64,000 nt of DNA from NCBI GenBank assembly GCA_021372615.1, contig JAJFUB010000132.1:1-64000 (forward strand), given 5' to 3'. Each line of letters starts with the position of its first letter. Position 1 is the first letter of the stretch. Of this stretch, positions 4,018 through 61,664 are shown piece by piece. The DNA is from a bacterium. Lineage in GTDB: Bacteria; Armatimonadota; Zipacnadia; Zipacnadales; UBA11051. Both the position numbers and the translations under genes were made by a program. A model generated the notes under the pieces. That model had not been told where the DNA came from. It made no database searches and saw only the letters and a program-made list of their open reading frames with translations.

Positions 4018-4045
4018 TCGCGTAACCCGTACCCCGTAGCCCGCC
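4018..4045. repeat. Heptanucleotide short tandem array
   Basis: Four seven-base units in register: TCGCGTA, ACCCGTA, CCCCGTA, GCCCGCC. The array ends three bases before the rhomboid stop codon. Other heptad arrays occur at 15370, 30984 and perhaps 36527. Confidence 0.5.
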
Positions 4046-4047
4046 CC

Positions 4048-4737
4048 TCAGTACCGCACATCCAGCACACGCGGCCGCGGAAGCGTACGTCGCGGCATCA
4101 CCGCGAACCGCTTCACCAGCCACAGGCCGGCGATGAAGCCGCCAATGTGCGCCCAGACGGCCACACCCCCACCGGCGCCCCCGATGCTGCCCAACCCCGC
4201 GAAGAACTGGAAGACGAACCACAGGCCCAGGAACACCACCGCAGGCAGGTCCACGACGGTGATGAAGACCACCAGGATGACCAGTGTGCGCACCGTGGCG
4301 CCCCGGAAGAGCACGAAGTAGGCGCCCAGGACGCCGGCAATGGCGCCGCTAGCCCCCAGCACCGGCACTGACGCGAAGCCGGAGACCAGCGCATGTGCCA
4401 GCGCGGCGATCGTCCCACACAGCAGGTAGAAGACCAGATAGCGGAAGTGCCCCATGCGGTCCTCGACGTTATCGCCGAAGATCCACAGGAAGAGCATGTT
4501 CCCCGCCAGGTGCAGCACCCCACCGTGCATGAACATCGAGGTCAGGATGGTCAGGAAGACGAAGCTCAGGGGCTCCCCGGCGTCTCGGTGGATGAGGTGC
4601 GCGGGGTTGAGCGCGAACTCCGTCCGCAAGTCCTTCTCCTGGACCTGCCACACAAACACGAGCAGGCAGGTGGCGATGATCAGGTAGTTGACCACCGGCG
4701 GGCGCGAGGACGGGATGTTGTCACGTAGGGGTAGCAT
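4048..4737 (-). CDS. Rhomboid family intramembrane serine protease
   Basis: The 229-residue polytopic protein has the full rhomboid signature. HGGVLHLAGNMLFLWIFG (residues 71-88) includes Asn80 of the oxyanion hole. GASGA follows with Ser130 as nucleophile, and AHIGGF gives His197 as the catalytic base. About six hydrophobic helices are visible, the minimal bacterial rhomboid size. The enzyme would cut transmembrane segments of client proteins in the inner membrane; no client can be named. It stands alone, with a REP-like element upstream and a convergent terminator downstream. Confidence 0.93.
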   Translation of the reverse strand: MLPLRDNIPSSRPPVVNYLIIATCLLVFVWQVQEKDLRTEFALNPAHLIHRDAGEPLSFVFLTILTSMFMHGGVLHLAGNMLFLWIFGDNVEDRMGHFRYLVFYLLCGTIAALAHALVSGFASVPVLGASGAIAGVLGAYFVLFRGATVRTLVILVVFITVVDLPAVVFLGLWFVFQFFAGLGSIGGAGGGVAVWAHIGGFIAGLWLVKRFAVMPRRTLPRPRVLDVRY

Positions 4738-4810
4738 GGAGTGTCCTGAATGAGCTGGGTCGCAGGCTGCTCGGGCGCTAGTGTCGCGTCCCGTGATTGG
4801 CTATGTGCTC

Positions 4811-4864
4811 CCAGTAGCGCGGGCGGCCCGCCCGCGCGGGCAGGCGAGCCGCCTGCCCTACTGC
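4811..4864. repeat. REP-like inverted pair, copy 1 of the CCAGTAG family
   Basis: CCAGTAG (4811-4817) opens the element and CTACTG (4858-4863) closes it in inverse. Inside are two adjacent hairpins, GCGGGCGGCCCGCCCGC and GGGCAGGCGAGCCGCCTGCC. Other copies are at 29998 and 61665. It lies 31 bases past the stop of the large glycosidase-like gene. Confidence 0.85.
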
Positions 4865-4894
4865 ACAGCCTCTAGCCATCACCGGGACAGCACA

Positions 4895-7800
4895 CTACGG
4901 CGTGGCGCCGGCCCGGCTGCGCACGTACGGGATGGCCTCGGCGTGCAGCCGCTGCGCTTGCGCCAGCAACTCGGCGGCGGGAGCGGCTACGGCGGCCGCC
5001 TCGCCCGCAACGACACGATCCTCCAACAACAGCCGCTGGCAGAACGCCTCCGCTGTGTCATCCACGAGCTGCTGCAGCTTCGCGTCCCGCGTGTTCGCGA
5101 AGGGCTGCGAGCGCGGGCTCTGCTTGACGAGGTCCGGAGGGACGAGCACGTCGAAGTTGGCCCGGTAGACGTCCGCCACCTCTGACAGCAGGCGTAGGCT
5201 GTCCTGGAGTTGGGCGAGCACCTCGCCCAGCGGCTTCGCCGCCGTCACGGCCTCCGCGAGCTTGGCCTGGGCGGCCGACAGGCGGGCGTGGGCGAGGGTG
5301 TAGTCGCCGCGCTTGGTGGCCTCGGCGGCCTGCCGCGATAGCCCGGCGGCAGCACCGAGGTCCACACCATTGGCCGCGGCGACTGCGGCGTCCATGTCGT
5401 AGATGACGCGCTCGTTGTCGTAGTGGCCCCGATGCACGGCGGCCAAGGCCGCCTGCGCCCCCGCCGCAGTCCCGCAGTAAAGCACGCGGCCGTCGCCGGG
5501 AGCCAGCGTGACGGCCAGGCCACCAGCGGGGAAGGGTGCCGGCGCGGTGAGGCCGCTCAGGTCACAGAGCTGGGTCGCGGCCCCGAGCTTGCCGGCGTCG
5601 GCCCGCAGCGTCGCCTGCTGCTCATGCTCCACGTCCTGGTTCACGGCCACGATGAAGAAGCCGCCGCCGGTGCGCTGCTTGAGCACCCCGAGCGTCACCG
5701 CCGGGCCCTGGTAGGCCGCCTTGCCCAGGTCCAGCGGCTGCGCCTCGGCGGTGAAGGGGTGGTCGTCCACGCAGTCCGTCTCCAGCAGCGACGGCCCGAT
5801 GGCCGTGACCTGCCGGCCCGCCGCGCGCAGCGCCTCCCACCCCGACGTCCCCACACCCCACGAGTCGCACAGTGTGTAGAAGTAGTGCTGGTTGTAGCGC
5901 CAGCAGGGCGGCGACTGGCTGCCATGCCACGTGATGCCCTTGCCGCCGTTGGCCACGACCAGCCAGATCATCAGCCGCGTCTCAGGGCCGGTCGGCAGCA
6001 GCCACGTGTAGCCCTCCCGGCCGCCGAAGGCCGGTAGCATCACCCATACGGGGGCCGGGGTCTGCCGGGCGCAGAAGCGCACGAGCTTGGTCACTTCCCA
6101 TGGGCGGCGGCCAGTGTTGCGGATCGGGTACTCATCACCGTAGTACACCGGCATGTACGGCAGGTACTCGGTGCGGTCGAGGTTGAGGATCACGAGCACG
6201 GGGTGGTTGGGGTCGGCCTCGCGGTACAGGGACTGCAACTCCACATACGCCGGCACATGGCCCGAGCCCGGTTCATCGCTCAGGTCGTAGGCGAGGATGA
6301 GGTCGCCGTACTCGCGGGCAAAGGTGCGGCGCAGATCCAGGTCAAAGCCGGTCTCGGCGATGCGCGCCAGCATGGCCTCCCGCGTTCCGGGCGGCTCGGG
6401 CAGCTCCACGTAGGCGCCGTCGGGCCGGTGCCCGAAGCGCCGCAGCATGTCGCCCTTGGGGATCAGGCGCATGTGGTACTGCCGCGCCAGGTCGCACAGC
6501 CACGGCTTCTCCCCCGCCTTCAGCGGCGTCAGGCAGATGTTCTCGCCGACGATGTACGTGTTCAGGTACGCTCGCCGGTACAGCCGAAGCTGCCGCTCGG
6601 TGGCCTGCTGCAACGTGCCCATCTCCGGCCCGGTGTAGCCGCGGAAGTACTCGCCGAACGGGTAGAAACCCGCCAGCGCCGGGTAGGGGTTGTCATCCGG
6701 CGGCGCGGGCAGGTTCTGCGGGAACCGGGCATTGATGAGCGCGGGTGAGAGCGCCACGCTCTGCGCAGTCGGCCCCGTGCCGGCGACCAAGCGCAGTTCC
6801 TGAACCTGCTGCCCGGGCCACGGCAGCTTCAGGGCGGCCGGCGTAGTCGGGGACAGGGGGACGGTCTGCTGCCACGACACAGGCTTGCCCGCCACGCGGC
6901 CCGTCACGCGCACTTCGGCCGATCTCGCGCCGCTCACGGGCGCTACGCCCAGCGTGAGGTCGCCCGCGCCCGGCAAGTTCAGCGGGCTGAGCGATACGGC
7001 CAAGTCCCGGCTGGCGCTGACGATGGGCCCGCCGCCGGGGACGGGCGCGATGAGGTAGGTCGTCTGCCAGGTCCCGCCAGCCGGCAGCTCGACGGGCCGG
7101 TATGTCCACTCCAGCGTGTTGAGGGCGGGCGTGAGGGAGACGAGGGCGTGTTCGGTCTGGGCGCGATCGAAGAGGACCGCCAGGCTGCGCTGCGCCGCGG
7201 GGTCGCTGTAGGCCAGCCAGCCCTCGCGGAGGTCGGTGATCGGGATGTTGGCCCGCGTCAGGCTTTCCAGCGGCTGCACGACGCGCAGATGGTCGCGCGC
7301 CGGCCAGGTGAAGACGCCGTGGCCTGGGGGCAGGGCCTGCTGGACCCGGAGGCTCAGGCACCGCTTCTCGGCCGCCGTATTGCGCACCCGCAGCGTCACT
7401 TCCAGCGACGCCGACCCGTCCGGCAGCCGCAGCTCCTTTTCAAACTGCAGGTCGGCGAGGCTGCCGCCGGCGCCCTGGTGCCGCACGCGGACGCAGCGCC
7501 GGGGCTCGATGACCTCCAGGATACACGGGTCGTCGCGCAGCAGGCCTGGGGGCGCCTCGGCCGGGGCAATCTCGGCGGCCATGCCACCGGGGCGGATCCC
7601 CTGCCACACGGTGGTCTCGTGATCCCCGGGCTTGAGCACATAGCTGCACACGCGGCCGCCCAGGATCGGCTCGACGATCGCACGGGCGAAGTCGTTGTCC
7701 AGCACATCGCCGGCGGGGATGAGTTGCACGTCGTCGTACCAGACGGAGCCGGCGCCGCCGTTGCGCAGATAGAGCAGGACGCTGCGCGTGGCGGCGTCGG

Positions 7801-8260
7801 TGCTGAAGTCCCAGACCAGTTCTGTCCACTCGGGCTGCTGCTCGATGCGCCGGCTGGACAGGTACTGCAGGCGGTTGCCCTTCTCGTCGGCGGTCATCAC
7901 CGAGCAGTAGGCCATGCCATCGCCCGAGGTCCTCAGCCACACGCGGAGGGTCATGCGGCCGGGCCCGACGAGGCGGTCGCCCAGCTCCTGGCCGGCGATG
8001 TTGTTGTTCGCCTTGCCGGCATCGGTGATCTGCTCGCGGGGCAAGCCGGTGATCTGCAGCGAGCGGGCGCCGCTGTGGGCGTCGTCGGAGGCCTCGATCT
8101 TCCCGCGCGGGTTGCTCCAGTACACCGGCTCCCAGTCCTGTGGCAGGTTGGTGGCCGGGGCCAGAGTCTCGAAGCCGGGGTTGCTGACGGGGTTGGTCTG
8201 GGCGAGGGCGAGGGTGGCGCCGCACAGGGCGGCCAGGGCAAGGGCCAGGCGGGCAGGCAT
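4895..8260 (-). CDS. Large secreted glycosidase-like protein with N-terminal CBM
   Basis: The ATG at 8260 follows GGAGG by six bases and opens a clean signal peptide (residues 1-20). The 1121-residue protein then shows a CBM4/9-like module (about 22-180, ending VWYDDVQLIP), a beta-rich middle part and a TIM-barrel-like region (about 530-860). YDLSDEPGSG near residue 660 carries the D-E-P pattern typical of the acid/base glutamate in clan-A-like glycoside hydrolases. The last 200 residues are alanine-rich and helical. I do not recognise a numbered GH family. It is probably exported and acts on extracellular polysaccharide. It is the last gene after groEL on this strand but is separated from it by a hairpin. 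Confidence 0.7.
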   Translation of the reverse strand: MPARLALALAALCGATLALAQTNPVSNPGFETLAPATNLPQDWEPVYWSNPRGKIEASDDAHSGARSLQITGLPREQITDAGKANNNIAGQELGDRLVGPGRMTLRVWLRTSGDGMAYCSVMTADEKGNRLQYLSSRRIEQQPEWTELVWDFSTDAATRSVLLYLRNGGAGSVWYDDVQLIPAGDVLDNDFARAIVEPILGGRVCSYVLKPGDHETTVWQGIRPGGMAAEIAPAEAPPGLLRDDPCILEVIEPRRCVRVRHQGAGGSLADLQFEKELRLPDGSASLEVTLRVRNTAAEKRCLSLRVQQALPPGHGVFTWPARDHLRVVQPLESLTRANIPITDLREGWLAYSDPAAQRSLAVLFDRAQTEHALVSLTPALNTLEWTYRPVELPAGGTWQTTYLIAPVPGGGPIVSASRDLAVSLSPLNLPGAGDLTLGVAPVSGARSAEVRVTGRVAGKPVSWQQTVPLSPTTPAALKLPWPGQQVQELRLVAGTGPTAQSVALSPALINARFPQNLPAPPDDNPYPALAGFYPFGEYFRGYTGPEMGTLQQATERQLRLYRRAYLNTYIVGENICLTPLKAGEKPWLCDLARQYHMRLIPKGDMLRRFGHRPDGAYVELPEPPGTREAMLARIAETGFDLDLRRTFAREYGDLILAYDLSDEPGSGHVPAYVELQSLYREADPNHPVLVILNLDRTEYLPYMPVYYGDEYPIRNTGRRPWEVTKLVRFCARQTPAPVWVMLPAFGGREGYTWLLPTGPETRLMIWLVVANGGKGITWHGSQSPPCWRYNQHYFYTLCDSWGVGTSGWEALRAAGRQVTAIGPSLLETDCVDDHPFTAEAQPLDLGKAAYQGPAVTLGVLKQRTGGGFFIVAVNQDVEHEQQATLRADAGKLGAATQLCDLSGLTAPAPFPAGGLAVTLAPGDGRVLYCGTAAGAQAALAAVHRGHYDNERVIYDMDAAVAAANGVDLGAAAGLSRQAAEATKRGDYTLAHARLSAAQAKLAEAVTAAKPLGEVLAQLQDSLRLLSEVADVYRANFDVLVPPDLVKQSPRSQPFANTRDAKLQQLVDDTAEAFCQRLLLEDRVVAGEAAAVAAPAAELLAQAQRLHAEAIPYVRSRAGATP

Positions 8261-8293
8261 GGCGGTCCTCCGGTTGCCGTCAGTCCACACGCA

Positions 8294-8323
8294 GACAGGC
8301 GGGCCACAATGGGCCCGCCTGTC
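8294..8323 (-). terminator. groEL terminator hairpin
   Basis: GACAGGCGGGCC (8294-8305) pairs perfectly with GGCCCGCCTGTC (8312-8323) over a 6-base loop, 31 bases after the groEL stop. The T-run on the minus strand is weak. Confidence 0.65.
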
Positions 8324-8353
8324 GGTTTCGTCTGCAGCGATCCGGCTTCCTGC

Positions 8354-9985
<1,632 letters not shown>

Positions 9986-50144: not shown

Positions 50145-50912
50145 ATGCTACCATCACGCCCCCTGGGACAGTTCTTCACGCCCCCACAGGTCGTTGACCT
50201 GGCCTTCGCCGTGCTCGCCTGGCTGCGGCCGGATGTGCGCGCAGGACGGCTGGTGGACCTGTCGTGCGGCGAGGGGGCGTTCCTGGCCGGGGCGCTGCGG
50301 CATGGCTTCCTCGTCGAGCGTGTCTACGGCCTCGACGTAGACCCGAAGTTGCTGCCGGTGTGGCAAGCGCACTTCCCCCCGCCCGCGCGCCCCCACCTCG
50401 CCCTGGCGGACGGGCTCCTCGGCACGATGACGGAGGCCTTCGAGGTGGTGGTGGGCAACCCGCCCTTCGGCGGCAGCCCCGACCCCGCTGTGCTGCCACA
50501 CCTGATGGGGGTCTACCACTGGTGGCGGCTGGGCCGCCGTGGTGGCGGTTCGTTCCCACGGGAGCTATGGTTCCTGGAGCGGTCGCTGCGCCTCCTGCGC
50601 CCCGGCGGGCTGCTGGGCCTCGTGCTGCCCGAGGGCTTCCTGGCGAACAAGCGGTGGCGTCCGCAGCGGGAGGACCTGCTGCGGACGGCGCAGGTGGAGG
50701 CGGTGATCGGGCTGCCCCGGTCGGTGTTCCGTCACAGCCACGCCGCGGTCAAGACGTGCCTGATCTTCGTCAGGCAGCAGGCGCCAGCGGCGGGGCACGT
50801 GGTGCGGCTGGCGGAGTTGGACGACGAGGACTTGCCGTGCCCCGAGGCGCTCCTCGGAGCCTGGGAGGCGGGGGCGGTGCATGCCACAGAGGCGCCGTGG
50901 CGGGAGGCGTAG
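50145..50912 (+). CDS. Solitary short N6-adenine DNA methyltransferase-like protein
   Basis: The 255-residue protein opens with LGQFFTPPQVVDLAF, the start pattern of HsdM-type methylases. Motif I LVDLSCGEGAFLAGAL and the catalytic NPPFGG (motif IV) follow, then LRPGGLLGLVLPEGFLAN and a final LPRSVFRHSHAAVKTCLIFV. It is half the length of a type I HsdM and lacks a recognisable target-recognition domain. No HsdS, HsdR or other nuclease is adjacent. It may be an orphan methylase, a degenerate relic or an RNA/protein methylase using the same fold. Confidence 0.8.
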   Translation: MLPSRPLGQFFTPPQVVDLAFAVLAWLRPDVRAGRLVDLSCGEGAFLAGALRHGFLVERVYGLDVDPKLLPVWQAHFPPPARPHLALADGLLGTMTEAFEVVVGNPPFGGSPDPAVLPHLMGVYHWWRLGRRGGGSFPRELWFLERSLRLLRPGGLLGLVLPEGFLANKRWRPQREDLLRTAQVEAVIGLPRSVFRHSHAAVKTCLIFVRQQAPAAGHVVRLAELDDEDLPCPEALLGAWEAGAVHATEAPWREA

Positions 50913-50993: not shown

Positions 50994-52025
50994 TTAGTTG
51001 ACGATGATGTTGATGTCACCCAGGGCCGTGACCGTGACGCTCAGCGTGCCCACGGCGGAGGTGTACGGCTGCGACGCGGTGATGGTCACCGGGCCGCCCT
51101 CCTTGATCCCGTGGATAGTGGCGTTCGGGCTGTCGGTCGCCGCAGGGGCGACGGTCACCGTCGTGTTGTCACCAGAGGTGAAGGTGATGGGCACATCGGT
51201 GATCTCCGTAGAGCCACTGTAACACTTGGCCACAATGTCCTGGTACTGCCAGATGTTGATCGTGGTGGATCCGCCCGCGGCAGTGCCGGCCGGGGCCACG
51301 TACGGCGACCCGACCGTCGTGATCTCCACCCGGTCAATGTTGGGGTTCACCGCGATGTTGTGGATGGCCGGCGTGGCGATAGCCTTCGCCTCTTCGACCT
51401 TGATGCCCGTGTTCCCGCGTGCGACGCCCGTAACCAGCCCCGTCTGGTCCACCTGGGCGAGCGTGTTATCCAAGGACGACCAGGTGAAGTCGGCGTCCAG
51501 CACGACGTTCCCGTCCACATCGTAGCCGGTAGCGGTGAGCTGCGTGTTGCCACCTACCAGTACCGACGAGGCGCCCGTGATCTCAATGCGGATGACCGTA
51601 GTTGCCATGGTCATGGTCACGCTCACGGCCACGTTGGGCAGCACCTCGACCCCGGCGGTGGCGTCGCAGATCACCGTCCCTGTGCCGTTGAGGCCGTCAT
51701 AGCCCTTGATGATCAGCGTCGTGGCCCCGATGTGCACTGCCTCGACGGTGACGTTGACGACTTCCTCTGACGGGCTGGTCCGGTTCACGATGATGGGGGC
51801 GCACTTGGGCAACCCCGTATTCGTGTCTATGACCTCGATGACCAGGGACATCAGCTTGGCCGGCAGGTACTCGGGCATGACCACCCCATCGGGAAGTGCC
51901 GGGAACCTGACGCTGAACCGCAGCGATCCCACGTCGCCGCCGCCGCTGCCACTTCCCCCCCCGCAACCGCACAGCAAGATGATCGCCAGCAGGCCTGCAC
52001 CCAGAACCATCATGCGCGTGCTCAT
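50994..52025 (-). CDS. Lipoprotein with Ig-like (BIG) domains
   Basis: The 343-residue protein has a lipoprotein signal peptide (lipobox LCGC, Cys21 as acylation site) followed by a Gly/Ser linker. The rest is Thr/Val-rich and beta-structured, with a BIG_2-like segment near 150-220 (IEITGASSVLVGGNTQLTATG, WSSLDNTLAQVDQTGLVTGVARG in blocks) and a second near 230-343. It is probably a surface or periplasmic structural protein. It is downstream of the FecR gene on the same strand, 40 bases away. Confidence 0.82.
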   Translation of the reverse strand: MSTRMMVLGAGLLAIILLCGCGGGSGSGGGDVGSLRFSVRFPALPDGVVMPEYLPAKLMSLVIEVIDTNTGLPKCAPIIVNRTSPSEEVVNVTVEAVHIGATTLIIKGYDGLNGTGTVICDATAGVEVLPNVAVSVTMTMATTVIRIEITGASSVLVGGNTQLTATGYDVDGNVVLDADFTWSSLDNTLAQVDQTGLVTGVARGNTGIKVEEAKAIATPAIHNIAVNPNIDRVEITTVGSPYVAPAGTAAGGSTTINIWQYQDIVAKCYSGSTEITDVPITFTSGDNTTVTVAPAATDSPNATIHGIKEGGPVTITASQPYTSAVGTLSVTVTALGDINIIVN

Positions 52026-52065
52026 CTCGTCCTCCTCCGTGCTCTTGCTCGTGGATGAATGATGT

Positions 52066-53727
52066 CTAGTCGAACCCCTTGATGACGCCCAGGCTCACGA
52101 CCGTGTCGTCCTCGGGCCTGGCCAGCACCGACAGCACCGTCGTCCAGTTGTGCCCGAACTCGCGGTAGGCCCGCGCGGACAAGAGCGACCCCTGCCCCTC
52201 CCGGTGGGCATATTCGAGGAACAGGTCCACATCATAGCGGTCGTACAGCTCGGGGAAGTAGGCGCCCAGAGTCTCGAGGCTCCGGTCCGCCGGATCGGAG
52301 CCGAACTCCCCATACACGTCCCATTTGCCGGCAATCACGGGGAAAGAGAAGTCCATCGAGACCCCGGTGCCGATGTCGTTGTAGTGCAAAGCGTTGAAGC
52401 CCACCGTGCCCCGGAAGATCGAGCCCTCGACGCGGGTGTAGTAGCCGCGCAGGTGGTCCTGATCCAGCGGCAGGAAGTCATGGACATAGCCCAGGTCAAA
52501 GCGCACGGCCCCCAGCTGTGGCTGCCACCGGACGGCGTCGGCCGTGTCGAAGCCGACGAGCGTGCCCAGGTTACTGTTGTTGACCGGCCCCATGATGAAA
52601 TGCTGGCGCCCGACGGTGACATCGCCGCAGCGGGGGCGCGCCTTGGCGAAGGCCTCGCTGATCTCGGCGCGCCACTCGCAGTCGGTGCGCGTCCAGGCCA
52701 GGCCGCCCAGCTCGAAGTAGATGTCGTTCCACACGGCGCTGGGCCGTACTCGCACCCCGGCCAGGCTGCTGTCGGTGCTGCCCAGGGCGAAGAGGTCGGC
52801 CCGAGTGGTGCGACCGTAGAAGCGCTTGCCGAAGGCCTTGGCCGGTTCGGTCTGCAGCATCGTCAGGGGCGCCACATCGAGCGCCACATCCGGCGCGGGC
52901 AGCGGGAGTGCGGCCAGGCGTTGTCCCGAGGACCTGCGCTGCCCGTCCGCCACGGAAGCCGTCCCCACCCGGGTGCTCTGCAGATCAATGACCACGGTGC
53001 CGTTGTGCAGCGGGTACCATCCATCCGCGCCCATGGCGGGCGAGTGGCTCGCTTGGAACTCGGCGCGCTGCGCCAACCCGGTAGGCGAGGCCGGGGTGGA
53101 CTGCAGGTTGGTGTGGGGGGCCAGACCCTCCCACCACTGGTCGGCCGTCCCGCTGAAGAACTCCTCGCCGGGCACGTGGCGCACCTCGCCGGGGGTGCCG
53201 TCCCGCCCGATGCGGGCCTGCGTGCCCCGCCCCACTTCACGCGTCTGCCCACCGCCGCTCAACTCGGCCAGTCCATCAAAGATGGTGAGGACGTTCGTCG
53301 CCCGCTCGCGCGCCGCGCCCATGTCTCCGGCGTCGAACTCCAGCACTGTGCCCTTGATGGAGGCCACGCCCGTGCCGCCCTGGATGCGGGCCGTCGTGCC
53401 CTTCACGATCCGCGCGTACAGCTTGCCATAGCCCATGGAGAGGTCTTTGCCGGCGATCTTGACGAGGGTCAGGTCGCTCAGCGGGGAGAGGCGAATGAGG
53501 CTGCCGTCGGAGAACTTGATCTCACACTTGCCCCGCTTGCCGGTACGCACCTGCGCCCCGGCGCCCAGCATCCGGCCGACCTTCGCCGGCGCCCAGGTCG
53601 CGCCGGCCGAGGCCCGGCACTTCACGTCGAGCAGGACCGCCGTGATCTTGGCTGTCTGCGCCGACACCGCGGCCGGGAGCAGGGCCAGCACCAGCAGCAG
53701 GCAGCAGGCGATCTTGGGTCGGTTCAT
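52066..53727 (-). CDS. FecR domain protein with C-terminal barrel-like region
   Basis: The 553-residue protein has a signal peptide (ending VSAQT) and a FecR domain (about 28-180: VQVRTGKRGKCEIKFSDGSLIRL-like block, GTGVASIKGTVLEFD). A long C-terminal part has alternating aromatic strands (VRFDLGYVHDFLPL, YYTRVEGSIFRG) that suggests an outer-membrane beta-barrel. FecR domains sense or transmit signals at the envelope. It overlaps the CHASE2-cyclase by four bases, and the two are very likely a functional pair. Confidence 0.82.
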   Translation of the reverse strand: MNRPKIACCLLLVLALLPAAVSAQTAKITAVLLDVKCRASAGATWAPAKVGRMLGAGAQVRTGKRGKCEIKFSDGSLIRLSPLSDLTLVKIAGKDLSMGYGKLYARIVKGTTARIQGGTGVASIKGTVLEFDAGDMGAARERATNVLTIFDGLAELSGGGQTREVGRGTQARIGRDGTPGEVRHVPGEEFFSGTADQWWEGLAPHTNLQSTPASPTGLAQRAEFQASHSPAMGADGWYPLHNGTVVIDLQSTRVGTASVADGQRRSSGQRLAALPLPAPDVALDVAPLTMLQTEPAKAFGKRFYGRTTRADLFALGSTDSSLAGVRVRPSAVWNDIYFELGGLAWTRTDCEWRAEISEAFAKARPRCGDVTVGRQHFIMGPVNNSNLGTLVGFDTADAVRWQPQLGAVRFDLGYVHDFLPLDQDHLRGYYTRVEGSIFRGTVGFNALHYNDIGTGVSMDFSFPVIAGKWDVYGEFGSDPADRSLETLGAYFPELYDRYDVDLFLEYAHREGQGSLLSARAYREFGHNWTTVLSVLARPEDDTVVSLGVIKGFD

Positions 53728-55640
53728 GGCTGGCTCGTCTCCCCTACCGGCTGTGTCGGCGGATGCAAGTCGGGCAGATCCACCGTGTACAGCTCGAGTG
53801 TCTCGGCGCGGCCACGTACGCTCTGGGTGCCCAGATGCTTGAGGGGCAGGTCGGTCGTCCCCAGCGCCGCCACCGTCTGCCCACTCATCAGGATTCCGGT
53901 CCGGAAGTCCTTGTTGAGCCCCTCGATGCGCGAGGCGGTGCTGACGGTATCGCCGATCACCGTGTATTCCAGCATTTGCTCGGAGCCGATGTCCCCGGCC
54001 ACGAGCGCCCCACTGTGGATGCCGATGCCCATGAGCAGAGGCGCCTGGCCCGCCGCCACGGCAGCAGCGTTTTCGGCCGCCATGCGCCGCTGCATGGCCA
54101 CCGCGGCCCGCACCGCCCGGGCCGCATGGTCGTCCTGGGCCACCGGGTCCCCAAACACGGCCATGATGCCGTCACCGATGAACTTGTGTATGGTTCCCCC
54201 AAACTCGCGGATGACCTCCACCATCGCCGTGAGATACTTGTTGAGGCGCTCGACCACGACCTCGGGGTCGCTGGTGGAGCACAGGGTCGTGAAGCCGCGC
54301 AGGTCGCTGAACATCACTGTCGCGTCCAGCCGCCGCCCCTGCACTTTCCTGACCGGATTGCTCAGGATGACGTGGAGTACTTCGGCCGACACTCGTTGCT
54401 GCCAGGCCCGGCGCAGCCGTAGCCGTGCCCGCTCCTCAGTCAGGTACATGTAGACCGTGCCTGCCACGTAGGCCAGGAGACCGCTCAGGAGCGGCGGCAC
54501 CAGCGGCAGCCACAGCCGCATCTGCCACATCAGCAGGAACGTCGCCAGGACCGTCACAGCCAGCAGCACGAGGGTCAGCAGCCCGGCCCGCAGGGGGCGC
54601 AGGTACACCGTGGCCGCCGCCACGAGTAGTGCCAGCAGTCCCGTCACCAGCCACAGGACCGGCAGCGGCGTCGGGCGGATGGCGCTGCCCTCCAGCAGCG
54701 TCACCAGGGCATTGGCTTGAACCTCCACCCCCGGCATCTGCACCAGCCGTGCTTCCTCCGGGTGTCCCGGGTCCTGACGGGCCATGGGCGTCGGGTAGAC
54801 ATCCTGCAGGATCTCCGCCGTGCCGCCCACCAGGACGATCTTGTCGCGGAAGGTCCCCGGCGGGGTGATCCCCTCGAGCACCTGGTAGTAGGGCACGTAC
54901 TTGATGGTGCCGGCCGGCCCGGTGTAGTTGATGAGGATGGTGTCCCCGCCGATATACGGATGACCGCTGGCCCCGGCCCGGAGGCCCGCCGCGGCAATCG
55001 CGGCCGGATCGCGCCCGAGGTAGTGCGCCGCCAGCATCACCGGCAGCGTGTAGTAGGGCTCTTCCTGGTGCTGCCGGGTCAGCCAGGCCCGGCGCACGGT
55101 GGCGTCCGGGTCGCGCGGGATGTTCGTCAGCCCCACGTCCAGCATCGTCTCGGCGAAGCAGTCGACGGGGAAGCTGACGCTGCTGACACCGGTGGCCATC
55201 TCCTCGCCGCGAGTGGCAGTGTCCTGGTTGAGTTGGCCAGCCAGGATCACACGCCCGCAGCGCGCCATGGCCTGCGCCAGCGCCTCGTCGGCGGCCGGGT
55301 CGTCCGAGGGGCTGTCGAAGAGGATGTCCATGCCAATGACTCGCGCACCGTCCGCGGCCAGCCGGTCGAGCAGACGGGCGTGCACCGAGCGCGGCCAGGG
55401 CCACTCGCTCAGGCGGTTGCGGGCCTGCTTGAGCGACTCGTTGTCAATGGCGACGATGACGACTTGCTCGTTGAAGCGGGAGGGACGGCTGGCGAGACGG
55501 GAGTCGTAGGCGCCCAACTCCAGGCGCCACAGCAGAGACCCCAGGGGGGCGGGGGGGCGATGCAGAACCACAGCCGCTGCCGCGGCGGCGACAGTGCAGA
55601 GCACGACAGCCAGTGCGGACCGGATGCGCCGTTGGTTCAT
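53724..55640 (-). CDS. CHASE2 domain adenylate/guanylate cyclase
   Basis: The 638-residue protein has an N-terminal helix, a periplasmic CHASE2 sensor domain (about 45-320, with VVIVAIDNESL, RVIGMDILFDSPS, IVLVGGTAEILQD), three helices (about 325-400) and a class III cyclase domain (about 440-610). The cyclase has ATVMFSDLRGFT, FIGDGIMAVFGDP (both metal aspartates) and YTVIGDTVSTASRIE. It would make cAMP or cGMP in response to an envelope signal. It is coupled to the FecR gene downstream. Confidence 0.94.
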   Translation of the reverse strand: MNQRRIRSALAVVLCTVAAAAAAVVLHRPPAPLGSLLWRLELGAYDSRLASRPSRFNEQVVIVAIDNESLKQARNRLSEWPWPRSVHARLLDRLAADGARVIGMDILFDSPSDDPAADEALAQAMARCGRVILAGQLNQDTATRGEEMATGVSSVSFPVDCFAETMLDVGLTNIPRDPDATVRRAWLTRQHQEEPYYTLPVMLAAHYLGRDPAAIAAAGLRAGASGHPYIGGDTILINYTGPAGTIKYVPYYQVLEGITPPGTFRDKIVLVGGTAEILQDVYPTPMARQDPGHPEEARLVQMPGVEVQANALVTLLEGSAIRPTPLPVLWLVTGLLALLVAAATVYLRPLRAGLLTLVLLAVTVLATFLLMWQMRLWLPLVPPLLSGLLAYVAGTVYMYLTEERARLRLRRAWQQRVSAEVLHVILSNPVRKVQGRRLDATVMFSDLRGFTTLCSTSDPEVVVERLNKYLTAMVEVIREFGGTIHKFIGDGIMAVFGDPVAQDDHAARAVRAAVAMQRRMAAENAAAVAAGQAPLLMGIGIHSGALVAGDIGSEQMLEYTVIGDTVSTASRIEGLNKDFRTGILMSGQTVAALGTTDLPLKHLGTQSVRGRAETLELYTVDLPDLHPPTQPVGETSQP

Positions 55641-55684
55641 TGGGAGACCCCGGGGGAGCGGCCGGCTTCCACCGACGGCCGACG

Positions 55685-56392
55685 TCAGTAAGCGCCGCGA
55701 CCGCTCAGTACGGCTGGAATGGTCAGCAACAGGATCTTGAGGTCAAGCCACAGGCTGCGCCGTCGCACGTACTCGATGTCCAGCTCGACCCACCGCTCAA
55801 AGGGAATGTCGCTGCGGCCGCTGATCTGCCAGATGCACGTCAGGCCGGGACGGATGGCGAGGCGCTCGCGCTGCCACGGCTCGTAGTTCTCGACCTCCTC
55901 CGGCAGCGGCGGGCGTGGCCCCACCAGGCTCATCTGCCCCATCAGCACATGGAACAACTGCGGGGTCTCGTCCAGACTGGTCCTGCGGATCCAGCGTCCA
56001 ACGCGTGTGATGCGGGGGTCCCGGCGGATCTTGAACACAGGGCCACTGGCCTCGTTGACTGCCTCCAGATCGGCGCGGATGCTCTCCGCGTTGGCCACCA
56101 TGGACCGGAACTTCAGGAACCGGAAGGGGAGGCCGTTCTCCCCCAGGCGGGTCTGGCCGTAGAGGACCGGCCCCCGTGACTCCAGCTTGATGGCCAGGGC
56201 CACCAGAGCCATGGGGAGGCCCAGGAACAGGAGCGCGAAGCCGGCGCCAATGACGTCAATGACGCGCTTGGTGACCATGTAGGCGCGGGAGACGCCCGTC
56301 CGCGGAGGTGCGATGGTGGCGGCCTCGGTGGGGAGCCGCACGGGCTGGACCTGGGTCATGGGGAAAGCGTGGACGCGCGCGACCCGCCTCAC
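55685..56392 (-). CDS. Undecaprenyl-phosphate sugar-1-phosphate transferase
   Basis: A bacterial sugar transferase (PF02397) of 235 residues that starts an exopolysaccharide or glycan on the lipid carrier. It has one N-terminal helix (RVIDVIGAGFALLFLGLPMAL), the catalytic GPVLYGQTRLGENG and FRFLKFRSM, then RRTSLDETPQLFHVL and SLVGPRPPLP. The GTG at 56392 overlaps the EpsI stop (GTGA), suggesting coupling; the ATG at 56359 would give a shorter protein. It lies beside exosortase and EpsI, the usual setting of EPS-linked sorting systems. Confidence 0.93.
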   Translation of the reverse strand: MRRVARVHAFPMTQVQPVRLPTEAATIAPPRTGVSRAYMVTKRVIDVIGAGFALLFLGLPMALVALAIKLESRGPVLYGQTRLGENGLPFRFLKFRSMVANAESIRADLEAVNEASGPVFKIRRDPRITRVGRWIRRTSLDETPQLFHVLMGQMSLVGPRPPLPEEVENYEPWQRERLAIRPGLTCIWQISGRSDIPFERWVELDIEYVRRRSLWLDLKILLLTIPAVLSGRGAY

Positions 56393-57027
56393 TGGTACCA
56401 GAAGCGGACCGCCGGCACGTAGACGCTGGCTAACACCTCCTCCAGAAGCTCCCGCGCTGCCTCAATCGCCCCAGGCCGGGGGTAGGTGCTCAGGGACAGC
56501 ATCAGGCCGCCGGTTCCCCGCGGGGCCTGCGACACTGCCCAGCCCTGCTGCATCCAGTCGCCGGTCGTTCCCCCCCTGTGCGCGAACACGTACAGTACCA
56601 GGATCTCCTGGCTGCCGCGCCGACCGTGTAGCATCTGCCCGTGCAGCGGCCCCGCATGGGGACAGCCCGGCGGCGCCGCCACACTGACTAGTTTCTTCTC
56701 CGACACCTGCCAGCCCTGCTGCGGCAGGCACGACAGCGGGGAATGCACTGCCCGCCAGTCGGTGCCGTAGACCAGACTCAGGTGAACGTTCCGGTTCGAC
56801 GACTTGTACTCCAGCTCGTCCATCACGTCGGCGCCCAGATACTGGAAGATGCGCTGATCCACCGGGACGCGCTCCGCCGCCATGTCCCCAATCCGGGTCG
56901 GGATGTCGCGGAAGTCCACGCGATAGCGCACCTGCGGGGCGCGCCGCGCCCACAGCAGATTGGCATAGGCGGCGCCCCCCAGCAACAGCACCGCGGCGAC
57001 TAGATATCGTCGCGCATCCGCGTGCAT
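56389..57027 (-). CDS. EpsI/DUF3485 exosortase-associated protein
   Basis: The 212-residue protein has one N-terminal helix (about 10-26) and an extracytoplasmic domain with LVYGTDWRAVHSPLSCLPQQGW in blocks, the HSP..CLP..GW signature of the EpsI family. A few conserved aromatic residues follow. EpsI proteins nearly always accompany exosortases and are sometimes fused to them. It overlaps the exosortase gene by 28 bases and the sugar transferase by four. Confidence 0.92.
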   Translation of the reverse strand: MHADARRYLVAAVLLLGGAAYANLLWARRAPQVRYRVDFRDIPTRIGDMAAERVPVDQRIFQYLGADVMDELEYKSSNRNVHLSLVYGTDWRAVHSPLSCLPQQGWQVSEKKLVSVAAPPGCPHAGPLHGQMLHGRRGSQEILVLYVFAHRGGTTGDWMQQGWAVSQAPRGTGGLMLSLSTYPRPGAIEAARELLEEVLASVYVPAVRFWYQ

Positions 57028-57884
57028 CCGATGAGACTCCCAAAGGCGAATAGTGTGAGCAGCGCGATCAGGAACACGAGCATGCCTGACAGCGTGTGGA
57101 AGAACCCTTCGGCCGCTTTGGGGCCGAAGGACTGCGCCAGCACCAGGGTCAGCCAGATGCGGATGGCGTTGGCGACCAGGGCTGCCGGCAGCGACATGGC
57201 GAAGATCAGCAGGCGCTTGAGCATGGGCGCCACCACGACGTATGCATACAGGGCGCCCAGAGCGGTCATGGCGATGGCTGACTTGAGGCCGCTGCAGGCG
57301 ATCGCCACCTCAAAGCGGTAGCCGGGGATCTGCAGCGAGGTGCCTGAGCGGACGACCGGTATGCCCAGGAAGCCGGCCGTGCCGCCAGCGATCCTGGCCC
57401 CCCATAGCTGCATCGGCTGAGCGAACTTGTCCACCAGCAGCCGCCCCATCGGCACCATGAACAGCAGGAACACGAGGGGGAAGATGATGACGCGCGCCGC
57501 CGGCCAGCCCCACAGCCAGATCACCAGTCCGATGATGACCGTCACGAGGGCGAAGCCCTGCGGGAAGTTGACGTCCTTGGCGATGGCGACCAGATGCAGG
57601 GCCAGGCCGAGAGCGATCAGCGGTAGGCCGAGGGCGAAGTCCCGCCGCGGCGCGGCGGCGAGTTCGTCGCGTCGCCGGTAGATCAGGTACGCGGTGATCA
57701 GCGGAATGAGGAAGCCGTGCCCGTAGTACTCGTTGTGCCAGCCCTTCTGCCAGAGCCAGACGAAGTGCTGGTGCCAGCCGGCCACGAGCAGCAGTGCCAG
57801 GAGCGCCAACACCAGGGGGGAGGGGGAGGCAGAGGTTCGGGGCAGCGCCGGTGTCTGTGCAGCGTCCTGTGCCTCAGCGGCCAT
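57000..57884 (-). CDS. Exosortase (EpsH family)
   Basis: From the ATG at 57884 the product has 294 residues with about eight helices. The presumed catalytic triad is visible: Cys197 in IACSGLKS, Arg242 in NAIRI, His263 in GFFHTLSG. The N-terminal WHNEYYGHGFLIPL is typical. Exosortases cleave and anchor proteins with a C-terminal PEP-CTERM-like signal and are linked to extracellular polysaccharide loci. No classical PEP-CTERM protein lies in this window, although two proteins have other anchor-like ends. A GTG at 57896 is an alternative start. Confidence 0.94.
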   Translation of the reverse strand: MAAEAQDAAQTPALPRTSASPSPLVLALLALLLVAGWHQHFVWLWQKGWHNEYYGHGFLIPLITAYLIYRRRDELAAAPRRDFALGLPLIALGLALHLVAIAKDVNFPQGFALVTVIIGLVIWLWGWPAARVIIFPLVFLLFMVPMGRLLVDKFAQPMQLWGARIAGGTAGFLGIPVVRSGTSLQIPGYRFEVAIACSGLKSAIAMTALGALYAYVVVAPMLKRLLIFAMSLPAALVANAIRIWLTLVLAQSFGPKAAEGFFHTLSGMLVFLIALLTLFAFGSLIGCTRMRDDI

Positions 57885-57908
57885 GGAGCGTCCCACGCAT
57901 CTCGTTCG

Positions 57909-58541
57909 TTAGCGGTGGCTGCGGCGGCGGCGCACCCGGCCGTGCCGCAGGTGCCGCGAGGCACGGGCCAGGCGGGGCGGAACCAGGTAGACAAGGGCCC
58001 CGATGGCGGCCCCGGCCAGGGCGATGAGCAGTGTGTACCCCAGCCCGCCCACCAGGCTATTGACCAGCTTGATGGCAGACGTCGCCAGAGTGTACCAGGC
58101 GTAGTACAGCCGTTCGCCGATCGCGCGCGGCACTACACCCTCGGGTGTCGCCCGCTGAGCCAGCGCGGTCACGATCAGATTGAGCAGCCCGCTGGCAAGC
58201 ACGGCGACAAGCGCGCCCAGCAGGGCGTTGCGCACCATGGCGCGGGGCTTGACCCTGTCGCTGCGGCTGCGCCGACGGACGCGGACCGCCTTGATCCAGT
58301 CCGTACCGCAGGCCGGGCAGCGGGACAGGTTCGACGGGAAGGCCTGGCCGCAGAAGCACAGGCGGTACTGCTTCTGGCCGCAGTGTGGGCACACCTGGGC
58401 GTCCAGCGCCAGCGTGCCGCCGCAGCGGTGGCACGCTTTTGCTTGCCCCCCGGCGGCGTCAGGTGGCCCCGTGTCGCCCGGCTGCGTCACCTCGACATCT
58501 TGCTCCGGCGCAGCCGGCTGGCCGTCCGACACCGTGCACAC
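57909..58541 (-). CDS. Double zinc-ribbon membrane protein
   Basis: The 210-residue protein starts at a GTG. It has two zinc ribbons in the first 85 residues: CHRCGG with CPHCG, and CFCG with CPACG. Two membrane helices (about 100-125 and 165-190) follow, then a very basic tail. The ribbon-plus-helices plan is common in uncharacterised bacterial proteins. Its place 24 bases ahead of the exosortase gene suggests co-expression, but no role can be assigned. Confidence 0.65.
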   Translation of the reverse strand: MCTVSDGQPAAPEQDVEVTQPGDTGPPDAAGGQAKACHRCGGTLALDAQVCPHCGQKQYRLCFCGQAFPSNLSRCPACGTDWIKAVRVRRRSRSDRVKPRAMVRNALLGALVAVLASGLLNLIVTALAQRATPEGVVPRAIGERLYYAWYTLATSAIKLVNSLVGGLGYTLLIALAGAAIGALVYLVPPRLARASRHLRHGRVRRRRSHR

Positions 58542-58593
58542 CTGCCCTGAGTATCAACGTGACGGCAGCGGGATGCTGACCGACCCGAGCGCC

Positions 58594-60270
58594 TCACTGG
58601 GGCGCCGGCAGCGTCCCCGTGGAGGCAACATCAGGCACACGCTCGAACAGCACCCAGTTGCCGTTGGCGAACGTCTGGCGGACACGCCAACTCGACACCG
58701 TGGGCGTCCGCGTGACGGCCATGCGCCATAACTGCGCCCAGCCCTGGGCCTGCTCCGGCCGCGCCACATCCACGATCTGCGGTGTGAGTACCAGCCAGCG
58801 GACCTGCCCCACCACTTGCTCGATGCGGCGCAGGTCCACGTCGTTGCGCGGCAGCCAGATCGCCGGGCGGTCTGCATACCACGCGATGGCCCACGGCATG
58901 TCACTGAGCACCACAGCGGGGGCGTTCTCCCGCCCGCCGAGCTGCGGGATCATGGCGTTCAGTTCCTGGCTGGCCCGGCGCACCGCGGTGGGCACCGGCG
59001 ACGCAACCGGCCGGCCGGGAGCCAACTGCAGGAACAGCGGCACCAGGTGCAGCACCATCAGCACCACCACCGCGAACACGGTCCAGCGCACGCGCAGACG
59101 CTCCGTCAGCGGCTTCATCCGCAGGTCGAGCAGTTGGTAGAAGAAGGCGACGGCAATGACCGTGCACACCGGCGCCATCGGCATGAGCAGGCGCGTGTCG
59201 TGGCCCATGATGCACAGGGCGAAGAACAGCAGTAGCGCCAGGATGTATAGCCCTGGCCGCAGCCGGTCCATCCCGGCATGGCCCAGGGGCACGATCACCC
59301 CGACAAGGAAGAACGGCATGATGGCCAGGCCGGTGAAGGAGAACCACAGCGGGTACGCCTCTACGGCAGCGTCGCGACACCGCTCGTAGATCTCGCGGGG
59401 CGCCGAGAACATGAAGGAGACCACGCCCGGCGGGTTCTGCTCGTACGACCGGTAGATCATGTTGCCGCTGAAGGTGCGGGTGTTGACCATGGCCTCGTAG
59501 GCGCTGGCATTGCTCAGCGGGTTCCCCGTCACCCGGTAGGTGCGGTAGAACCACGGGAGCAAGACCACCACGAAGGCCGCCGTGAACAGTATGATGTTCG
59601 GCATTCGCTGCCTGGCCGAGGCGTTCAGGACGAGGACCAGGAGTACTGGCGCGAAGGCCATCAGCCAGGTGAAGTGGGTGAGATACAACAGGCCGGTGAG
59701 TACCCCGGCGACGGCGGCCAGGGGCATGCGCATCGGGGCGCGGCTCTGGTGGAGGATCAGCACTACGCACAGCAGCGTGAACAGCAGCCCCAGCAGCGCG
59801 CCCTCGGTGCCCGAGACGCCCACGGTCAACGCCACGACGTTCGTGCCCAGGACGATGGCGCTGAGCATCCCGACCTTGCGCGAGAAGGCCGTCTGGCCCA
59901 GCCAGAACACCAGGGGAATCGTCAGCAGGAACGGTATGCCCGAACTCCACGAGATGCTCTGGTTCGACGGCCCGAACAGGCGGAATAGCAGCGACATGAA
60001 CAGGGGCTGTAGCGGGGCGTGGACGAGGTCGGGGTGGCTCTGGATACTCGGTGCGAGAGCCAGCGTCAGGGGCCGGATCAGGTCCGTGGTGAAGCCCTGG
60101 CCGGTGGCAATGTTGCGTGCCACCTGGGCCAGGTCCATGGCCCGCAGGTCACTGAGCTCGGCCATCCGGGCCGACTGGTAGACGACGAAGACGAACAGAA
60201 CGCCGACTGCGAGTACCGCGCCCGCCAGCCACACCCGCAGCATCTTGGGCACAGGGGCGTTCTCTACCAT
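58594..60270 (-). CDS. GT39-type membrane glycosyltransferase
   Basis: The ATG at 60270 follows GGAGG by five bases, giving 558 residues with about 11 helices. The first loop contains LRAMDLAQVARNIATGQGFTTD and HPDLVHAPLQPLFMSLLFRLFG in blocks, as in ArnT/PMT-like proteins. The C-terminal soluble domain (about 440-558) has FLQLAPGRPV and IAWYADRPAIWLPR. It would move sugar from a lipid carrier to an exported acceptor. It heads the exosortase-side cluster on this strand. Confidence 0.85.
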   Translation of the reverse strand: MVENAPVPKMLRVWLAGAVLAVGVLFVFVVYQSARMAELSDLRAMDLAQVARNIATGQGFTTDLIRPLTLALAPSIQSHPDLVHAPLQPLFMSLLFRLFGPSNQSISWSSGIPFLLTIPLVFWLGQTAFSRKVGMLSAIVLGTNVVALTVGVSGTEGALLGLLFTLLCVVLILHQSRAPMRMPLAAVAGVLTGLLYLTHFTWLMAFAPVLLVLVLNASARQRMPNIILFTAAFVVVLLPWFYRTYRVTGNPLSNASAYEAMVNTRTFSGNMIYRSYEQNPPGVVSFMFSAPREIYERCRDAAVEAYPLWFSFTGLAIMPFFLVGVIVPLGHAGMDRLRPGLYILALLLFFALCIMGHDTRLLMPMAPVCTVIAVAFFYQLLDLRMKPLTERLRVRWTVFAVVVLMVLHLVPLFLQLAPGRPVASPVPTAVRRASQELNAMIPQLGGRENAPAVVLSDMPWAIAWYADRPAIWLPRNDVDLRRIEQVVGQVRWLVLTPQIVDVARPEQAQGWAQLWRMAVTRTPTVSSWRVRQTFANGNWVLFERVPDVASTGTLPAPQ

Positions 60271-60347
60271 ACGGACCTCCAGGGGAGCGATGCTGGCGGC
60301 AACCACTTGAGTCTATCACAAGACCCGGCTCCCGAACAAGCGTCACC

Positions 60348-61535
60348 TCAGGCCCCGGCCGCCTTCATGCCCCAGGCCGCGCTGCCCGCCTGAGCGCCCC
60401 GCGCGCCCAGGTACCCGCACCAGCCCTCCCACAGCCTGCGCCGTCCGTCCTCCGACGCCCGCTGCCGCAGCTCCTCGCGGCTGCAACCCTCGCCCAGGAG
60501 CTGCTTGGCCTCCTTGCCGGCGCGCATGAAGGCCTGCACCTTGGGCACCGAGGCGTCGTCGCAAATCGTCTCGGCGAGCGTCAGGCTGACGCCGTTGGCG
60601 CCGTCGGCCGCGGACAGGAAGACGAAGTCCTCTACCTCCTGCGCGGGCATCTGGCGCAGGTGGAAGCAGCCCAGGCGCCAGGTGAACGGCACGCGACAGC
60701 CCTCGCAGAATATCTTCGGCGTGAGCCGGGGCGAAATGGAGGGGTCAAAGTGGCTCAGCCCGATCTCTTCGAGGAACGGGAGCTGGGCAGGGCGTAGGTC
60801 CTCGACGTGCGCCGAGCGCGTGCCGCTGGTCAAGCCGCTGTAGAGCTGCTCCCAGTAGGGCAGCACGAACTCGGGGAAGCGCGCGGGCGGGATGAAGCTG
60901 GCGATGTCGTCACACATGCCGCTGCCGGCAGGATTCGGGAAGGGCTGCCCGTTCACCCCGGCGCAGACGCGGTCGAAATCCAGGATGCTGTCCACCACCA
61001 GGCGCATGAACTCCCTCGCCAGCGGCGGATCGTCATAGATGTCCGTGAAGAAGCCGTCCCCGCGCAGCTCGTAGGCCGTCGTCAGGGGGCCCTCGCCGCC
61101 GAAAGACCACCGCACCGGCTCATCCGGGAAGCGCTGCTGCAGCTCGTCCCGGAAGCGCAGGAAGTACGGCGCCATGCCCTGCGAAAGCCAGTCCACGGGC
61201 TGCTGCAGCGCCGCCACGCCCTCGGCTAGCGAGCCATAGACATGCGTGTGCGCCACCTCCCCGCCCTCGGGGAAGAGCAACTCCGAGCCGAGGCAGTTGA
61301 CATGCCCGTAGCTGATGGCGGGCGTCAGGAGCGGGTACTGCCCCACCTCGTCTCCGAAGACCTCACGCTGGCGGATACGTCCGAGGCGGTAGGTCTCCGC
61401 ACAGGCCGAGACCTCCAGGTTGAACTCGCGGATGGGGATGCCGGCCAGGGCGCGCAGGGCCCCCTGCGAGCTGCCAACATACCAGCCGAACCCCGCGCGC
61501 TCGCGGGCGGTCGCGTAGTCAGGGCGTGTGGTCAT
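60348..61535 (-). CDS. URO-D/MtaA-like protein
   Basis: From the ATG at 61535 the product has 395 residues. It has the uroporphyrinogen decarboxylase-like fold signs: SFGGEGPLTTAYEL, MCDDIASFIPPARFPEFVLPYWEQL, and a late metal-type Cys in KIFCEGC. Such proteins include URO-D itself and corrinoid methyltransferases of the MtaA/CmuA type. The metal-ligand CEGC and lack of a haem gene neighbourhood favour a methyltransferase-like or unknown enzyme. It lies between two REP-rich gaps and shows no partner. Confidence 0.7.
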   Translation of the reverse strand: MTTRPDYATARERAGFGWYVGSSQGALRALAGIPIREFNLEVSACAETYRLGRIRQREVFGDEVGQYPLLTPAISYGHVNCLGSELLFPEGGEVAHTHVYGSLAEGVAALQQPVDWLSQGMAPYFLRFRDELQQRFPDEPVRWSFGGEGPLTTAYELRGDGFFTDIYDDPPLAREFMRLVVDSILDFDRVCAGVNGQPFPNPAGSGMCDDIASFIPPARFPEFVLPYWEQLYSGLTSGTRSAHVEDLRPAQLPFLEEIGLSHFDPSISPRLTPKIFCEGCRVPFTWRLGCFHLRQMPAQEVEDFVFLSAADGANGVSLTLAETICDDASVPKVQAFMRAGKEAKQLLGEGCSREELRQRASEDGRRRLWEGWCGYLGARGAQAGSAAWGMKAAGA

Positions 61536-61664
61536 GGGCTTCACCCGGTGGAGGAATGGGATGGCGTGGGGCAGTTCGGCGGCAGCGGAGGCTGCACCTG
61601 CCGTGGGCGCGCTCGTCGTGCCCCGGCCAGTGCCGCCCCGTCGGGGCAGTGGCGCCCCCTCCAA

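Follow-up and report, generated by a model that had tools for sequence, protein, structure and literature searches.

An exosortase block joined to a CHASE2-cyclase/FecR cassette in one family of Zipacnadales: a combination of two known modules

A block of eight co-directional genes of a Zipacnadales bacterium (Armatimonadota) was identified as two known modules combined in a way specific to one family, and not as a wholly new system. Module A is an exosortase block and module B is a sensor cassette with a CHASE2-cyclase and a FecR-domain protein. The two are somewhat more probably than otherwise the parts of a composite operon, in which a pre-existing sensor cassette was joined to the sole PEP-CTERM sorting machine of the genome. 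The window, the whole stretch of 64,000 nucleotides that was analyzed, represents contig C132 of a 6.41-Mb assembly (96.7% complete, 68% GC; hereafter G000). By the list of open reading frames and Pfam and TIGR profile searches, all eight genes named by a sequence-only reading of the window were located on the minus strand with the stated domains, within about 9.3 kb (50994-60306). The genes and the two neighbors of the block are as follows.

60348-61664, minus: URO-D-like gene, 41 bp upstream of the GT39 gene
58594..60306, minus: GT39/PMT_2-type membrane glycosyltransferase (GT-C); PF13231, 1.1e-7; start probably ATG at 60270
57909..58541, minus: double zinc-ribbon membrane protein (ZnR), double zinc ribbon plus TM, by alignment, distribution and structure model
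57000..57896, minus: exosortase, XrtA-type; PF09721, 4.4e-64; TIGR03109, 212.6 bits
56389..57027, minus: EpsI (DUF3485); PF11984, 8.1e-19
55685..56392, minus: short polyprenyl-phosphate sugar-1-phosphate transferase (Bac_transf); PF02397, 1.3e-63
53724..55640, minus: CHASE2 extracytoplasmic sensor, TM helices and class III cyclase; PF05226, 2.3e-60; PF00211, 2.5e-26
52066..53727, minus: FecR protein with signal peptide, FecR domain, linker and predicted C-terminal outer-membrane beta-barrel; PF04773, 6.7e-7
50994..52025, minus: Ig-like (Big_2) lipoprotein; PF02368, 7e-11; lipobox-like LLCGCG at the N-terminus
50145-50912, plus: N6-methylase-like gene, convergent, downstream of the block

The exosortase and EpsI genes overlap by 28 bp, and overlaps of 4 bp were found both between EpsI and the sugar transferase and between the cyclase and FecR; the sizes of 28 and 4 bases given by the earlier reading were correct, but the overlaps occur in three places and not in two. 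An overlap of the same 28-bp length was available between exosortase and EpsI in the loci checked from other genera. The remaining gaps within the block are 12-52 bp. The order of the eight genes is not a matter of chance, because it was found again in four other genomes, and the block may be read as one transcript. No excess of promoter-like or minus-strand terminator sequences was found in the block, such a scan being little informative at 68% GC. The URO-D-like gene is located outside the conserved block and its position is not kept in relatives; it could carry the promoter.

The proteins of the window were searched against exosortase loci fetched from relatives, and the order GT39–ZnR–exosortase–EpsI was found in 28 of the 36 exosortase loci (Zipacnadia, ex-WS1, Armatimonadota). 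Among the eight others, several are cut by contig ends, two of family f4 carry no ZnR gene, and one is the second exosortase of another genome (G001). The GT39 gene is the first gene of this order-wide core. The exosortase, the only one in G000, gave 212.6 bits with TIGR03109 against the XrtA cut-off of 208, and its Cys201, Arg246 and His267 were invariant in an alignment of 13 sequences. EpsI gave 68.6 bits with PF11984 (cut-off 26.1) and 39.6 bits with TIGR02914, below the cut-off of 42.8. The sugar transferase is composed of the catalytic half only (235 aa), with 289.8 bits for TIGR03025, slightly below the cut-off of 295.55; a transferase of this kind follows EpsI in nine of the 40 loci tallied. 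As an exopolysaccharide-type neighbor of the exosortase, this PF02397 protein is encoded in the window in 4-bp overlap with EpsI.

The search of G000 for PEP-CTERM proteins gave seven matches at E<=0.001 and 11 above the family cut-off. At least eight substrate genes with PEP-TM-Arg tails (PEP...RRRR) are encoded away from the block, with C-terminal ends such as PEPTTLALLGLGLGGLVLRRRRRD, and most of the PEP-CTERM proteins inspected begin with a signal-peptide-like segment. Inspection of the C-termini of the proteins of the block itself detected no PEP-CTERM tail. Since an exosortase of the XrtA level, its catalytic residues and PEP-CTERM proteins are found in the same genome, module A is, in the ordinary reading of these sequences, the PEP-CTERM sorting machine, and the sole one, of G000. 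Exosortase systems are widespread, and their regulation and partner proteins are poorly known.

One candidate partner is the zinc-ribbon membrane protein. In the alignments of relatives, eight Cys residues (37, 40, 51, 54, 62, 64, 75 and 78) forming two ribbons are invariant, followed by hydrophobic helices and a basic tail; in the structure model the ribbons have pLDDT of about 90, and helices are placed at 99-131, 141-162 and 167-186. Apart from the two f4 loci devoid of it, the position of ZnR between GT39 and the exosortase is fixed across the order, and when 291 genomes from the phylum were searched, strong full-length matches were nearly confined to the order. A fold search against PDB gave no match at E<=0.001, and a search of PDB by sequence profile gave only weak matches to generic zinc fingers, with no close solved relative; no paper was found by a literature search pairing exosortase with zinc ribbon. 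ZnR is thus, as judged from its position and distribution, an exosortase-associated and nearly order-specific protein, constituting a new zinc-ribbon membrane protein of exosortase loci conserved across the order.

The components of module B are widely distributed. CHASE2 domains were detected in 53 and FecR domains in 55 of 61 genomes of the phylum. Among the matches listed for genomes G000-G013, a FecR match was located within 4 kb of 36 of the 52 CHASE2 matches, where about 1% would be expected; the count is approximate, since for three FecR matches an approximate position was taken from the loci. The form of the cassette in which the FecR protein is long, and in which the Ig-like lipoprotein usually comes next, was found in families f3, f4, f5, f6, f7 and f8, away from exosortase. 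A second CHASE2-cyclase/FecR/Ig cassette is present in G000 itself on contig C4 (L102, about 4025-9108), with no exosortase nearby, and this copy groups with the f3 copies instead of the exosortase-linked ones. Module B, a putative envelope-sensing cassette, is widespread in the class and normally unlinked to exosortase. The Ig-like lipoprotein gene follows the FecR gene in G000, G002, G003, G004, G005 and G006. For the FecR protein of the window, 14 strands were predicted at 321-550 in a model of very low confidence (pLDDT of 33.7, built from an alignment of four rows), too low to serve for a fold search; the beta-moment z was 1.87, and the homologues carry a terminal Phe. The C-terminal part may form an outer-membrane beta-barrel; no relative was found in PDB.

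Modules A and B are adjacent and co-directional in five of the seven genomes of the family (f1), namely G000 of genus g1 and G002, G004, G005 and G006 of genus g3. The combination noted from the window alone is therefore shared by two genera, at block protein identities of about 28-55% and with unrelated flanks: genes common to g1 and g3 are absent on both sides, and the boundaries of the block are the limits of synteny. In G001 of the sister genus g2, the sugar transferase gene is followed after 15 bp by a convergent methyltransferase gene, the same gene that follows the cassette in the window, so that this is a site without the cassette; no barrel-type FecR was found elsewhere in G001. The exosortase-linked copies are compatible with a single origin, with moderate support of 62/63 in the cyclase tree and 79/87 in the FecR tree. 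Because the order is kept at 28–55% identity while the flanks differ, the join is probably functional; the comparison of these sequences gives good grounds for the view that selection keeps the modules joined in this order, and speaks indirectly for a functional tie between them. The value of this lineage is that its sole exosortase has the sensor cassette appended, and the sister genus without the cassette provides a natural comparison.

Among the loci examined, no linkage of A and B was found in families other than f1, and for this reason the idea of an exosortase-cyclase system shared by the phylum at large was rejected. The block was not scored as absent from G003, in which a barrel-FecR fragment and the Ig gene are located at a contig end. 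An apparent second barrel FecR of G004 was also rejected, probably being one gene split over two contig ends. The proposal that the block is a new multi-gene system stands in that the joined order recurs within the family, but it does not hold for the modules, both of which are known and normally unlinked in the class, nor for genus g2, which has no cassette at this site.

In class III cyclases, an Asn is the transition-state residue. The cyclase of the window (53724..55640) retains the metal-binding Asp pair together with Lys, Thr and Arg, and the catalytic Asn is replaced by Ser (VSTASR). By residue alignment, all five linked cyclases keep Asp, Asp, Lys, Thr and Arg and carry Ser for Asn. 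The same replacement was found in most relatives of the order, and the other cyclases of G000 keep Asn. Solved cyclase homologues exist for this domain. A total of six class III cyclase domains were found in G000, and no match to the cNMP-binding domain of the CRP type (PF00027) was obtained at E<=0.001 in this 96.7% complete genome; the same search gave matches in 10 of the 14 control genomes. The best match to HTH_Crp_2 in G000 was rejected as CRP, being a GntR-type regulator by inspection. Within the order (G000-G040), class III cyclases were found in 39 and PF00027 in nine of the 41 genomes, and outside the order PF00027 was found in 16 of the 20 genomes. How the cyclases signal in these genomes apparently devoid of cNMP receptors is a separate question. 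In our view, these cyclases without a visible receptor and ZnR as exosortase partner are the more interesting leads. The control of surface output by cAMP or cGMP, which had been suggested from the sequence, is disfavored by the replacement of Asn and by the lack of a detectable PF00027 receptor in G000.

In the composite operon proposed here, module A would act on exported proteins whose genes are located elsewhere, trimming their C-terminal PEP-CTERM anchors, in connection with surface-glycan synthesis. The FecR protein may be inserted in the outer membrane by its barrel, with the FecR domain in the periplasm contacting CHASE2 of the inner-membrane cyclase, and the state of the outer membrane or surface would then be passed to the cytoplasm via this FecR–CHASE2 contact, possibly with a nucleotide as the output. 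The Ig lipoprotein may be accessory. By the joining of the cassette to module A, the sensor and the sorting machine would be set under common expression, and the sensor may tune the output of surface proteins or glycans, that is, exert control on export.

A less likely explanation is that the two modules are neighbors without coupling, the cassette having come to lie downstream of module A in the ancestor of the family, riding on its transcript or using its own promoter, and sensing something unrelated to export. The cassette is indeed self-standing elsewhere in the class, G000 carries its second copy away from any exosortase, and the family member G001 has none at its exosortase site. Such indifferent neighborhood, however, does not readily account for the joint order kept between two genera at 28-55% identity without conservation of the flanking genes, nor for the abutting or overlapping genes of the block.

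Two further possibilities concern the output of the cassette, and both are improbable. One of them supposes that cyclic nucleotide is made by the linked cyclase in small amounts or not at all, and that the CHASE2/FecR pair has a structural or protein-contact role in which the cyclase domain is degenerate, as might be expected from the Ser that takes the place of the transition-state Asn in every linked cyclase and most order relatives, and from a genome in which no cNMP-binding domain was found and the best HTH_Crp_2 match is of the GntR type. A dead domain, however, would not need the metal Asp pair, Lys, Thr and Arg that are kept in all linked copies, and the Asn is kept by the other cyclases of the same genome; moreover, the receptor search covered CRP-type PF00027, and a receptor of another kind, such as a GAF domain, may be present. 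The other, equally doubtful, supposes a feedback-controlled sorting, in which the exosortase, with its glycan partner, builds a surface layer whose state is sensed by the cassette, and the output of the exosortase is adjusted accordingly, by a path that depends on cyclic nucleotides or is independent of nucleotides, without a CRP-type receptor.

The composite operon resembles the PEP-CTERM/exosortase system (EpsH/XrtA; Haft 2006, PMC1569441; TIGR03109, TIGR02914, TIGR02595) with respect to the XrtA-level exosortase with catalytic residues, the adjacent probable EpsI, the sugar transferase and the dispersed PEP-CTERM proteins, but is different from it in that GT39 and ZnR have a fixed place upstream and, in family f1, the CHASE2-cyclase/FecR cassette is added downstream. 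The sensor pair is not new by itself, as clusters of CHASE2-cyclase and FecR have already been described (PMC9239204; PMC5498481). In Campylobacterota, CHASE2-adenylate cyclases cluster with FecR-domain outer-membrane proteins (PMC9239204), and the likeness extends to a cyclase adjoining a FecR-domain protein, part of which is putatively located in the outer membrane. Those clusters include in addition a phosphodiesterase and a TPR protein, neither of which was detected by Pfam in the block and its two neighbors, whereas the cassette here includes the Ig lipoprotein and, in family f1, has the exosortase block upstream.

In Sinorhizobium meliloti, cyaD1 (SMc02176, CHASE2) is located beside the FecR-domain gene SMc02177, and cAMP raises succinoglycan synthesis through Clr (PMC5498481). 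This precedent for a link between cyclase and polysaccharide is general and not specific, because the plant signal that passes via CyaD1D2K has no control over the exo genes (PMC5498481). In S. meliloti, the outer-membrane barrel NsrA acts upstream of the CHASE2 cyclases (PMC7529298, PMC13001267), so that the CyaD1/CyaD2/CyaK–NsrA–Clr system shares with the cassette the CHASE2 cyclases, an outer-membrane barrel (here predicted) and the FecR-domain gene beside cyaD1, but reads cAMP with the CRP-family Clr, in contrast to G000, in which no cNMP-binding domain was found by PF00027. As in FecA-FecR-FecI, the FecR domain would be the periplasmic part of a path from outer membrane to cytoplasm; the partner here is a cyclase, and Pfam detected neither a FecI-type sigma factor nor a TonB-dependent receptor in the block and its two neighbors.

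The surroundings of the exosortase core also vary among the relatives. In family f3 (L121, L127, L128, L132 and L133), the genes for recX, RNase Y and a YmdB-like phosphoesterase are located immediately upstream of the core. Upstream of GT39 in genus g3 (L123, L125 and L139), one to three tandem copies were found of a gene for a probably secreted protein of ~480 aa (cluster c30). In family f5 (L126, L129, L131, L134, L136, L138, L140 and L146), a gene for a SurA/PPIC-type peptidyl-prolyl isomerase lipoprotein, another envelope factor, follows the core in the slot occupied by the cyclase cassette in f1.
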